Under the pieces are notes generated by a model. That model did no database searches and was not told the DNA's origin. It saw only the letters and a program-made list of their open reading frames with translations. From Candidatus Kapaibacterium sp. (GTDB lineage: Bacteria > Bacteroidota > Ignavibacteria > Kapaibacteriales > Kapaibacteriaceae), in assembly GCA_018882895.1 (NCBI GenBank), contig VERF01000027.1:1-32130 (forward strand): a stretch of 32,130 nt of DNA, in the 5' to 3' direction. A program made the translations under genes and the position numbers. Below are positions 101-12,076 of the stretch, piece after piece (positions within the stretch are counted from its first letter, which is position 1; each line of letters begins with the position of its first letter).

Positions 101-397
101 ACCAATACCCTCAAGGGATGAAACTGCGTTTACGCCCTATTGCCCACAAGGTGGGGTGAACTCCTCGTCGCAGCGATCCATGGTGCACGATTCATTGACG
201 CCACCTCCTCCACATCGACCTCCCTGCAACTTAAATGTATGTACCCTAATAGCATCTGAAAAGACAGGTATGATTGGGTCATTACCATTTTTCCTAGCAC
301 TCACCTTTAGTGCGTACACACAGTAACTTCAGTAATCTGTAATCAGTAATCTGTAATCTGTAATCAGTAATCGAATCACTCGTCACTATCTTCCCTC
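101..397. other. Non-coding stretch upstream of the selD duplication
   Basis: This stretch is more AT-rich than the rest of the window. Two overlapping open frames exist (plus 27-326, minus 137-319), but neither shows a recognisable domain, a clear ribosome binding site or the codon pattern of the neighbouring genes, so I do not call a gene. The segment probably carries the promoter of the left-edge minus-strand gene. It ends in the 7-bp-unit array at 330-371 and the first 20 bp of the selD direct repeat (from 378). Confidence 0.5.
330..371. repeat. Array of six 7-bp units, C(A/T)GTAAT
   Basis: Six consecutive 7-bp units alternate between CAGTAAT and CTGTAAT in the order A, T, A, T, T, A. 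Because 7 is not a multiple of 3 and each unit contains TAA, the array puts a stop codon into all three plus-strand frames within three units. It lies 6 bp before the duplicated selD block that begins at 378. It resembles in design, but not in sequence, the (A/G)GGTTTT arrays at 11128-11182 and 11315-11368. Confidence 0.85.
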
Positions 398-532
398 ATG
401 GTAAACCTCACACAATACTCACACGGAGCCGGGTGCGGATGTAAGATCGCGCCGGCGGTGCTTGACGGAATTCTTCAGACGTCTTTGCAGATGCCGCATG
501 ATGCGCGGTTGATCGTTGGCAACGCGTCCAAG
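378..532 (+). repeat. Direct repeat, left copy (selD 5' end)
   Basis: These 155 bp are repeated at 1625-1779 at an offset of 1247 bp. They hold 20 bp of the selD leader and the first 45 codons. I see five mismatches between the copies, at 403, 409, 460, 505 and 512. Read in the selD frame, four are silent and one changes Ser to Ala. Similarity stops sharply after 532, where the left copy runs into unrelated sequence. Confidence 0.93.
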
Positions 533-574
533 TATTTGGACAATTGTCTCAATAATGGTGATGCACTTTCATGA
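398..574 (+). pseudogene. selD: Truncated selD 5' fragment
   Basis: The ATG at 398 opens the same frame as intact selD and keeps 45 of its N-terminal codons, including the Cys-Gly-Cys-Lys active-site motif (residues 13-16). After Lys45 the frame enters foreign sequence, adds 13 codons and stops at 572-574, giving a 58-residue peptide. SelD is normally about 340 residues with ATP-binding and C-terminal domains, so this product cannot be a synthetase. It is best read as the left scar of the event that placed the hydrolase gene before selD. Whether it is translated is unknown; it keeps the same 20-bp leader as the full gene. Confidence 0.88.
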
Positions 575-9644: not shown

Positions 9645-11150
9645 ATGATCACTCTGTCTGCAGCGCTCTCGGCGTTGTCGAATTGTAGCTCCACACAGAT
9701 CGACGCCGATGCACAGTCGGCTCCGGTTCACGACGTGACCACTGATTCTCGTCAGGTACAGCCGGGAATGATCTTTGTTGCCATCGTGGGCACAACGTTC
9801 GATGGTCACGATGCCATCGACCAGGCCATTGCTCGCGGCGCCGTGGCGATCATCGTCGAGCGGATGCCGGCAAGCCCCTTGCCTGCGAGCTTCGTGTGCG
9901 TCTCCGACACCCGCCGCGCCTTCGCCGAACTGGTCCTGGCCATCTTCGATCACCCCAGCAGCGTCCTGTCGATGTATGGCGTCACCGGAACAAACGGTAA
10001 GACCACCTGTGCCACGCTGATGGAGCAGATCTTCGCGCTGGAGGGCCGGAGGGTTGGCTTCATCGGTACCACGGGAAATCGCTACGGTGGCCTCGAGTAT
10101 GCCACGGACTACTCAACGCCCCATGCCCGACAGCTTGCCGAGCTGTTCATGTCGATGCGCTCGGAGGGCGTCGACACGGTCTGCATGGAGGTAAGCTCTC
10201 ATGCCCTGTCGCAGCATCGTGTGCTGGGAATTGACTACCGCGGTGCGATCTTCACGAATCTCACGCGTGATCATCTCGATTACCACGGCACCATGCAGGA
10301 GTATGCCAGGTGCAAGAAGCTTCTCTTTGATGGACTCTCGACGTCGGCCGCTGCCGTGTTGTGGGGCGATTCTGAGTGGACGCCCTACATGAAGCGGGGA
10401 TGCAATGCACGCCATGTGATCACCGTGGGGAAGGGGGCGGATAATCACGTCCGCGTAACGAACGTACAGATGTCGCTCACCGGCACAACGTTCACGCTTG
10501 AGCGGATGCGTGCCGACGCAACATTGGTGCCCGAGCGTTGCGTGATCTCTACGCGTCTTCTCGGAGACTTCAATGTTGCCAATGCAGCCCTGGTGGCAGT
10601 TCTCTGCATGGTCGACGGTATGAGTCCGGATTCCGTGATTGCTCACCTTGCGGCCGTGACCGGCCCCAAGGGCCGCATGGAGGTGCATCATGTGCCGTCG
10701 GGACCCACGGCGATCGTCGATTATGCCCATACCCCGGATGCTCTTCAAAGCGTCCTCGGCGTGCTTCGCGGACTCCATCCCGCAGGCAGTGCGGCGGGCA
10801 AGATCCACGTTGTCTTCGGCTGTGGCGGTGATCGCGACCGAGGCAAGCGTTCCGAGATGGGGCGCATTGCCTCCGAAATGGCCGATCACGTCTATATCAC
10901 CAACGACAACCCCCGCACCGAATCACCCTCTGATATCATAGCCCACATCATGGGCGGCATCGACGGACCACACCGTTCCCGCGTTACTATCATAGAGGAT
11001 CGACGTCAGGCCATCCATGCGGCTCTTTCTGCCGCCGCTCCCTCGGACGTCGTCCTCGTCGCCGGCAAAGGCCACGAGGAGTACCAGATCGTCGGCACCG
11101 AACGTTTGCCGTTTAGTGATACGGAAGAGGTTTTAGGTTTTGGGTTTTAG
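9645..11150 (+). CDS. murE: UDP-MurNAc-tripeptide synthetase, meso-diaminopimelate type
   Basis: Adds the third stem-peptide residue to UDP-MurNAc-L-Ala-D-Glu in peptidoglycan synthesis. The 501-residue protein shows the N-terminal TTDSRQVQPG and GTTFDGHD motifs, the ATP loop GVTGTNGKTT (112-121), the EVSSHAL segment, the Lys to be carbamylated in YARCKKLLF, IVDYAHTPDA, and DNPRTE, whose DNPR box marks use of meso-diaminopimelate. The ATG at 9645 was chosen because homology starts there; the frame is open from 9381 only through the Nudix gene. The last codons (VLGFGF) and the TAG stop are written by the (A/G)GGTTTT array, which appears to have replaced the original tail. No other mur genes are adjacent. 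Confidence 0.96.
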   Translation: MITLSAALSALSNCSSTQIDADAQSAPVHDVTTDSRQVQPGMIFVAIVGTTFDGHDAIDQAIARGAVAIIVERMPASPLPASFVCVSDTRRAFAELVLAIFDHPSSVLSMYGVTGTNGKTTCATLMEQIFALEGRRVGFIGTTGNRYGGLEYATDYSTPHARQLAELFMSMRSEGVDTVCMEVSSHALSQHRVLGIDYRGAIFTNLTRDHLDYHGTMQEYARCKKLLFDGLSTSAAAVLWGDSEWTPYMKRGCNARHVITVGKGADNHVRVTNVQMSLTGTTFTLERMRADATLVPERCVISTRLLGDFNVANAALVAVLCMVDGMSPDSVIAHLAAVTGPKGRMEVHHVPSGPTAIVDYAHTPDALQSVLGVLRGLHPAGSAAGKIHVVFGCGGDRDRGKRSEMGRIASEMADHVYITNDNPRTESPSDIIAHIMGGIDGPHRSRVTIIEDRRQAIHAALSAAAPSDVVLVAGKGHEEYQIVGTERLPFSDTEEVLGFGF

Positions 11151-11182
11151 GTTTTGGGTTTTGGGTGTTGGGTTTTGGGTTT
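11128..11182 (+). repeat. (A/G)GGTTTT array, left arm
   Basis: About eight 7-bp units of AGGTTTT or GGGTTTT (one variant GGGTGTT) read on the plus strand. The array starts inside murE and supplies its stop codon TAG at 11148-11150. Four GGG runs separated by TTTT, TGTT and TTTT (about 11156-11180) fit the pattern for a G-quadruplex in the transcript strand. It forms an inverted repeat with 11315-11368. Confidence 0.92.
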
Positions 11183-11199
11183 ATGTGGTGATGCTTCTG

Positions 11200-11258
11200 T
11201 AAAACAGAAAAAGTGACGCGGGCTCTCGCCCGGTCACTTCCTTGGCTGTGCTGTTTTA
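11200..11258 (-). terminator. Rho-independent terminator hairpin, mainly for the minus strand
   Basis: AAGTGAC (11211-11217) pairs with GTCACTT (11233-11239), and inside it CGGGC pairs with GCCCG around a TCTC loop; read on the minus strand the loop is GAGA, a GNRA tetraloop. On the minus strand the stem is followed by TTTCTGTTTTA, a classic U-rich tail, so it should end transcription coming through rpsU. An outer pair TAAAACAG (11200-11207) and CTGTTTTA (11251-11258) can extend the fold, and may let it also work for murE transcripts. Residues 11259-11314 between this hairpin and the right array show no gene that I recognise. Confidence 0.8.
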
Positions 11259-11314
11259 GTACCTAGTATTGGGTTCGCTCGGCGTGATGATACGGCGTCT
11301 TACCCGCCCCAATC

Positions 11315-11368
11315 ACCTAAAACCTAAAACCCAAAACCCAAAACCCAAAACCCAAAACCCAAAACCTA
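11315..11368 (-). repeat. (A/G)GGTTTT array, right arm
   Basis: Seven complete 7-bp units plus partial ends, read on the minus strand as GGGTTTT five times in a row between AGGTTTT units. The TAG stop of rpsU (11368-11366) is the first TAG of the array. The five GGG runs fit a G-quadruplex pattern downstream of rpsU. With 11128-11182 it forms a long inverted repeat around a 132-bp spacer. Confidence 0.92.
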
Positions 11369-11560
11369 CTCTTGTTCCATCTGTGCGCGGTGCTGACGGC
11401 GAGCTGCCTTCAGGCGCGACATGCGGCGTTCGACGCTTGGCTTGACGAAGAAAGCACGCTTCTTAAACTCGCGAAGAACGCCTGAGCGCTCATATTTCTT
11501 CTTGAAACGGCGAAGAGCACGGTCAATCGACTCGTTGCTTTGTACGGTGACTCCGATCAC
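11366..11560 (-). CDS. rpsU: 30S ribosomal protein S21
   Basis: A 64-residue basic protein of the small ribosomal subunit. The start [20 protein letters not shown] and the KPSVERR segment are typical of S21, and the length is usual for Bacteroidetes. AAGGGA lies before the ATG as a ribosome binding site. The gene follows the basic-tailed Tudor-like protein by 24 bp, so the two are probably one transcript. The last sense codon GAG is followed directly by the GGGTTTT array, whose TAG serves as stop. Confidence 0.95.
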
Positions 11561-11584: not shown

Positions 11585-12076
11585 TTACTTGAAATTCTCG
11601 ACGAGGCGCTTTTCTTTGTTCTTTTCGAAGTGCACGAGCACAGCGCCGCGCCCGTTCGACATGATCTCCTTGGAACGTACGATGCCGACATCGTCCCAGA
11701 GCTTGTGATAGATCACATCACCTACCTTGTACACGTTCTTTGGCGAGTACTCCTTAGAGTCTTCGCGAGCGAGCTTGATCTCGGTAACCTTCTTGTCCGT
11801 ATTCGTGGCAAGCGTGTCGAGATTGATCATCTGCATGTGACGGCTCAGCGTACAACGAGCCCATTGCATGCGACCGCCTTCTGTTTCCATCGGCTCGGCC
11901 ATCAGCTCATGCTTGGTGTCCTTCATAAGGAACGGCGAGTACAGAACAATGTACTTGGCCTTCCGTTTGGTCTTCTTTGGAGCCTCAACGCCATCGGCAT
12001 CAACAGCTTCTGCCGTTGCCTTCTTGGCTTTCGAGGTCTTGGTTGTAGCGGCCTTGGAGGCTTTCGCTGCGGGCAT
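11585..12076 (-). CDS. Basic-tailed protein with a UvrD-Tudor/KOW-like C-terminus
   Basis: A 163-residue protein. Residues 1-40 are rich in Ala, Lys and Thr like a histone H1 tail. A middle domain (about 41-105) is unrecognised. The C-terminal 50 residues (YKVGDVIYHKLWDDVGIV ... VLVHFEKNKEKRLVENF) resemble the small Tudor-like beta barrel at the end of PcrA/UvrD, which binds RNA polymerase or nucleic acid. That resemblance is by eye and no function is assigned. It lies 24 bp upstream of rpsU, which suggests a role linked to transcription or translation. A TAACTTTG promoter element lies 29 nt before the start. Confidence 0.75.
   Translation of the reverse strand: MPAAKASKAATTKTSKAKKATAEAVDADGVEAPKKTKRKAKYIVLYSPFLMKDTKHELMAEPMETEGGRMQWARCTLSRHMQMINLDTLATNTDKKVTEIKLAREDSKEYSPKNVYKVGDVIYHKLWDDVGIVRSKEIMSNGRGAVLVHFEKNKEKRLVENFK

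Follow-up and report, generated by a model that had tools for sequence, protein, structure and literature searches.

Polar heptamer and octamer arrays at gene borders of Kapaibacteria, examined from the murE/rpsU junction

The window analyzed in this study, a stretch of 32,130 nucleotides from Candidatus Kapaibacterium sp. (GenBank assembly GCA_018882895.1, contig VERF01000027.1, forward strand), contains two convergent genes, murE and rpsU, whose stop codons lie within tandem arrays of the heptamer (A/G)GGTTTT. The question raised by this locus is what such arrays are and why they are found at the ends of these two genes. On the basis of current results, they belong to a dispersed class of period-7 and period-8 arrays that are placed with a preferred polarity at the edges of open reading frames (ORFs), obey a common degenerate grammar and occupy shared sites in different species with different units. 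The explanation we favor, tentatively and from sequence comparison, is that the arrays grow by slippage at gene borders and are held there by a putative sequence-specific, strand-polar reader.

Two inverted arrays at the murE/rpsU junction

The murE gene (9645-11150, plus strand) was identified by profile search (TIGR01085, 485 bits, and Pfam Mur ligase domains), its start coordinate having codon score as its sole basis, and rpsU (11366-11560, minus strand) was likewise assigned to ribosomal protein S21 (PF01165 and TIGR00030). At the murE stop edge, Tandem Repeats Finder (TRF) reported a period-7 array at 11128-11182, with AGGTTTT/GGGTTTT on the plus strand (7.9 units, 89% matches); the strand bearing the motif RRKK (R, A or G; K, G or T) is directed away from the ORF. 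The rpsU stop-edge array, evident both in the sequence and by TRF, occupies 11315-11366 and carries (A/G)GGTTTT on the minus strand (period 7, 7.4 units, 97% matches). The murE TAG (11148-11150) falls within the plus-strand array together with the final six codons, which give the C-terminus VLGFGF (GTT TTA GGT TTT GGG TTT TAG), and the rpsU TAG (11366-11368), the first TAG of TAGGTTTT, falls within the minus-strand array. All of this agrees with the description in an earlier note on this DNA, which had also counted at least four GGG runs in each arm; we found five per arm in the sense strands of both arrays. The arrays supply the stop codons because they run into last codons that are tolerated. 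No stop codon is present in the sense strands of common units, for example GGGTTTT, ACGGATT and ACAGGTT.

A probable intrinsic terminator of rpsU (11205-11239, minus strand; AAGTGACCGGGC-GAGA-GCCCGCGTCACTT followed by TTTT) is located between both arrays. On the rpsU strand, this interior is predicted to fold into a stable hairpin with a U run after it (z −4.1), and a comparable CACAAAAAGGCGC hairpin occurs at the corresponding place in array-free relatives. The arrays themselves do not have the features of an intrinsic terminator (a GC-rich stem and a U run directly after it). As RNA, the inverted pair has a predicted fold of −124.5 kcal/mol (z −11.4); since the terminator sits between the arrays, pairing of both arms would need a transcript that passes it. 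Upstream of rpsU, an ORF of 163 amino acids (11585-12076, minus strand) had no Pfam or NCBIfam match, and the DNA beside rpsU looks similar in several congeners.

Polarity and unit grammar of the arrays

To place the two arrays in context, we collected 117 arrays of period 7 or 8, of which 88 have heptamer and 29 have octamer units, from a total of 1.24 Mb of three Kapaibacteria metagenome-assembled genomes (MAGs), namely the genome of the window (G000, 100% complete) and two congeners (G009 and G005). It should be noted that the array statistics are derived from sampled sequence, that part of the G000 sample was picked around GGGTTTT matches, and that ORF edges were called with our own program, which is based on codon usage. 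Only 2 arrays were located within ORFs, and period 7 was the dominant class among all tandem repeats in the sampled DNA. The murE and rpsU arrays are not a chance occurrence, because 25 period-7 arrays were found in 300 kb sampled from G000. Further GGGTTTT arrays were found at about 20 places in this genome and GTAATC-type arrays match even more often, GGGTTTT being one among many unit types; most arrays of the class (AC types, described below) have no GGG runs. The median array length was 8.6 units for heptamers and 10.8 units for octamers, under a detection threshold that disfavors short arrays. The suggestion that the arrays are dispersed and expandable was borne out.

We then measured the distances to the ORF from the 5' and 3' ends (d5 and d3) of the RRKK strand of each array, this motif being used as orientation marker because keto content gave a weaker signal. 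Read along this strand, arrays have their 5' end close against the ORF and their 3' end toward the larger part of the intergenic DNA: d5 was smaller than d3 in 76 arrays against 18 (P=1e-9), with medians of 5 and 148 nt, respectively. In an enlarged sample, this rule was obeyed by 87 of the arrays lying no more than 20 nt from an ORF edge and broken by 11. At stop edges, 61 arrays had the expected orientation and 10 the opposite one, so the preference for gene ends predicted in the earlier note does exist; the term gene-end element is nevertheless too narrow, since start edges are used as well (26 versus 1), and there the strand runs against the direction of transcription. Start-edge arrays were located 0-30 nt from the starts of lepA, murC, proS, purK and selD. 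Because the polarity holds at starts and stops alike, the rule is relative to the ORF and not to transcription. Neighboring arrays no more than 600 bp apart were head-to-head in 27 cases and otherwise arranged in 3, and the gaps between them started at 0 bp. Of the 27 head-to-head pairs, 12 consisted of unlike units. The arrangement was kept at most of the 11 loci examined in G020, which belongs to another genus of the family. In plasmid A of Trichormus variabilis, taken as a cyanobacterial control, arrays were too few for a test.

These observations bear on the function proposed earlier, that is, an RNA element at gene ends, formed by a G-quadruplex or by a hairpin between the arrays, that would affect how transcripts are terminated, processed at the 3' end or stabilized. 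The GGG runs in both arms, the strong predicted hairpin and the position of arrays after stop codons all speak for such an element. However, we consider it improbable, since most arrays have no GGG runs and obey the rule, start-edge arrays carry the opposite RNA sense, 12 of the 27 pairs pair poorly and, for rpsU, a probable intrinsic terminator is already present between the two arrays. The G-quadruplex was ruled out as the general basis, because unit types without GGG runs keep the same polarity (56:12, P=6e-8). As for pairing of the arms, the predicted fold is indeed strong, but the hairpin could be rejected as a selected feature on account of the pairs with unlike units.

The consensus units also share a grammar. 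In one rotation and strand or another, W-Y-N-R-R-K-K or W-Y-N-R-R-R-K-K (W, A or T; Y, C or T) fitted 80 of the 88 heptamers and 27 of the 29 octamers (107 in total), whereas 20% and 12% of random heptamers and octamers, respectively, would fit. W-Y is AC in most types (AC-N-RR(R)-KK) and TT in the GGGTTTT type (TT-N-GG-TK). Across 639 AC-type heptamer units, A and C were nearly invariant, R was always A or G, and K was T or G with rare exceptions; when polymorphisms at K in AC-type arrays were counted once per array and position, 53 were G/T, 1 was C/T and 3 were A/T. Mutation ordinarily favors transitions. Deviations over all arrays comprised 457 A/C plus G/T differences versus 264 transitions, counts made up of non-independent events, and 3.1 kb of ordinary DNA from two close sister species showed 152 transitions versus 60 A/C plus G/T differences. 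Genome-wide, matches to the degenerate octamer pattern numbered at most 933 per genome (reached in G009; G005 had 339), and the reversed pattern, used as a control, had none in all 40 genomes.

At start-edge arrays of the two congeners (loci L110, L112, L113, L118 and L130), a TAnnTTTG-like sequence was frequent in the space that separates the array from the start codon (GTAACTTG, GTACTTTTG). It resembles the Bacteroidota -7 promoter element, and leaderless transcripts or transcripts with very short leaders would then be implied.

Conserved sites, unit replacement and other repeats

The murE/rpsU junction illustrates how sites and units behave in related species. An inverted octamer pair (ACTGAATT/ACTGAAGT) is present in G009 in place of the heptamers of G000, an inverted pair of AGTTACT-type heptamers flanks the terminator in G003, a short octamer array occurs on the murE side in G005 and an array occurs on the rpsU side in G001. 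No array was found at this junction in G002, G004, G006, G007, G010 and G011, and in relatives that lack the array murE ends differently. With the preference for gene ends described above, neither of the two outcomes that the earlier note had named as refuting it was observed. The terminator region between the arrays resembles the junction of array-free species; therefore, the arrays were inserted between the stop codons and the terminator. This likeness also argues against a mobile element that would carry array-like inverted repeats at its two termini. Inverted pairs and sharp array edges speak for such an element, but the interior resembles the ancestral terminator region, the arms are often unlike in unit, single arrays are common and Y1 transposases are also found in array-free genomes, which makes this origin the hardest of all to credit.

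Beyond this junction, reciprocal-best-hit orthologues were compared between pairs of species. Arrays were shared at orthologous edges far above chance (odds ratios 7.8, 37 and 107; Fisher P 0.005, 0.001 and 1e-5), and the unit was different at all 13 of the 13 shared edges, among which murC was counted three times; at the murC start, the unit is ACTAGTT in one species, ACGGAGGT in a second and ACTGGGT in a third. Pattern matches ran into the hundreds in G000, G001, G003, G005, G006 and G009 and to about 100 in G008, whereas in G002, G004, G007 and G010 the heptamer pattern had no match and the octamer pattern 0-6. Sister species may differ in having hundreds of matches versus almost none, and on the MurE tree array presence requires at least two changes. 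Mismatch-repair loss was ruled out as a cause, since mutS is found in array-rich and array-free genomes alike, and RVT_1, Ku and Y1 transposase do not follow the array distribution as lineage-specific factors.

Such data allow a comparison with ordinary simple-sequence repeats, which would arise in intergenic DNA by polymerase slippage, without a dedicated factor, and accumulate where they are harmless; grammar and polarity would then mark the survivors of selection against stray signals. Several facts fit this simple explanation. NGTMMYY (M, A or C) before a start has no ATG or GTG and little likeness to a Shine-Dalgarno sequence, heptamer repeats are over-represented in bacteria (PMC4692102), block duplications in the arrays match slippage, the arrays extend into dispensable C-terminal codons, and mutS is intact, so that a mutator lineage need not be assumed. 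On the other hand, it does not predict G/T over C/T at K (53:1), the invariant AC, one grammar for heptamers and octamers, the stop-edge polarity (61:10) or shared orthologous edges with changed units. We therefore regard it as a serious but doubtful possibility. Phase-variation repeats are associated with surface or contingency genes and with the switching of reading frames or promoters; the location of arrays at the housekeeping genes murE, rpsU, murC, lepA, proS, purK and selD tends to speak against such a role.

The window contains a second array with the unit ACTGATT (329-372, minus strand; GTAATC[A/T] on the plus strand), which lies upstream of a 5' fragment of selD in start-edge orientation; in G009, an ACTGATG array is located at the selD start (locus L143). 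The 5' end of selD and its upstream sequence are directly duplicated in the window (378-535 and 1625-1782; 158 bp, 96% identical). The first copy is the truncated fragment and the second opens the intact selD (1645-2679), with an unrelated ORF of weak hydrolase similarity (about 555-1616) between them, as if a gene insertion had duplicated the selD start. Other repeats were also observed. Tandem arrays of GC-rich 15-36-bp units are present in G000 (L090, L094, L096, L051 and L057; for example, GAGACGCCTTCGGCGTGC and CCGTCATTCCCGCGAAGGCGGGAATCCATT), sometimes near heptamer arrays, and several of them hold short inverted repeats. In addition, four contigs (G009 C1, G009 C11, G000 C39 and G005 C1) start inside long heptamer or octamer arrays; such repeats probably fragment these MAGs and hide the longest arrays.

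Proposed maintenance of the arrays and relation to known repeats

In the explanation favored here, units would multiply through replication slippage or unequal exchange, and arrays would lengthen until they reach codons that selection retains; the endings of murE and rpsU in array codons may be the product of such extension. Unit variants showed block periodicity (P<0.05) in 14 of 47 arrays, which supports growth by slippage or unequal exchange. For maintenance, a strand-polar, sequence-specific factor would accept any unit within the grammar, and this tolerance would allow units to be swapped while function is kept. A reader is favored because plain slippage leaves the substitution pattern and the stop-edge polarity unexplained, and the retention of place while letters change, together with the strict spelling rule, suggests that a cell component reads or maintains the arrays. 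K (G/T) and R (A/G) each share hydrogen-bond acceptors in the major groove, and by this groove chemistry K/R degeneracy would be natural for a DNA-binding protein. More speculatively, the polarity would suit a border at which RNA polymerase, or some other machine, is hindered on its way out of an ORF (in the sense direction at the 3' end, in the antisense direction at the 5' end) but is allowed to enter. A wider proposal, that polar AC-N-RR(R)-KK arrays are a genome-wide border code marking both outsides of genes, with a lineage-limited putative reader/writer and with units rewritten (even from 7 to 8 bp) at kept positions, appears unlikely at present, if far from implausible.

Some points weigh against the favored explanation. 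The polarity rule was broken by 11 of 98 edge arrays, the reversed control of the heptamer pattern was lower than the pattern yet above zero, and the grammar was devised post hoc from inspected arrays, though genus-wide pattern counts back it. The conserved sites could represent recurrent gains at tolerant sites and not inheritance. Neither growth polarity nor a decay gradient was found along the arrays, nor decayed units past their edges, and directional growth was thereby ruled out. No reader or writer gene was identified among the factors examined; RVT_1, mutS, Y1 transposase and Ku all fail to track the arrays.

The same searches bear on a templated origin, in which a telomerase- or DRT10-like reverse transcriptase would heal breaks at gene edges by adding repeats to DNA 3' ends. 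A bacterial reverse transcriptase that writes tandem repeats is known (PMC12632851), and the arrays resemble healed ends in that they point away from both ORFs and in that some, differing in unit, meet head-to-head only 0-3 bp apart. However, no RVT_1 match was found in the array-rich G000, G003, G005, G006, G008, G009 and G020, that is, in the genome of the window and most of its array-rich relatives, and Ku was absent from the genus. The many unit types per genome would require many templates (the short tandem repeats of the known systems are written by one enzyme), growth polarity is missing, and DRT10 uses its own protein as primer and not the end of a chromosome. Thus, templated addition is very improbable.

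Intergenic heptamer repeats have been noted in bacteria since about 1990, to our knowledge without an accepted cause. Cyanobacterial short tandemly repeated repetitive (STRR) heptamers, as in Calothrix, are short tandem repeats with several types per genome; we know of no description of polarity or grammar for them. Repeats of this type are mentioned in PMC4692102 as well. The view of the earlier note that no element of this kind had been described has to be abandoned. Dispersed intergenic G-rich heptamers (GGGNATC and GGGGA(C/T)T) were reported in Xanthomonas and Nostoc, located no more than 50 bp past a stop (coding strand) or ahead of an ORF (non-coding strand), nearer the 5' neighboring ORF regardless of its direction, and occurring singly or in inverted pairs, including cases of stop-codon overlap (Rehm et al., 2015; PMC4692102). 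Their GGG runs can form G-quadruplexes, four units are preferred and their function was left open. The GGGTTTT arrays of the window share the GGG runs, but the class as a whole does not. The Kapaibacteria heptamers are likewise dispersed and intergenic, and follow an equal strand and position rule (76:18; stops 61:10; starts 26:1), whereas they comprise many unit types, mostly without GGG runs, in periods of 7 and 8, under one degenerate grammar and with unit replacement at orthologous edges. TAACTGA direct repeats were found in Beggiatoaceae, Cyanobacteria and some Bacteroidetes; they frequently sit immediately ahead of start codons, and larger heptamer assemblages occur in some Bacteroidetes (MacGregor, 2015; PMC4679880). 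These are also intergenic heptamers and, read as ATCAGTT, fit WYNRRKK, but they are a single, mostly start-proximal unit with related heptamers being rare, whereas many related units coexist in Kapaibacteria. Thus, position, polarity and inverted pairs are already known from Xanthomonas and Nostoc, and the grammar and the turnover of units at kept sites look new.

For annotation, our data give a warning: repeats can make up the stop codon and the C-terminal residues of an essential gene. More generally, the grammar of G/T and not C/T, the polarity relative to ORFs and the turnover of units suggest that plain slippage and G-quadruplexes are incomplete as explanations. The question now becomes testable, namely which factor binds AC-N-RR-KK and which feature of array-rich species is missing from their array-free sisters.
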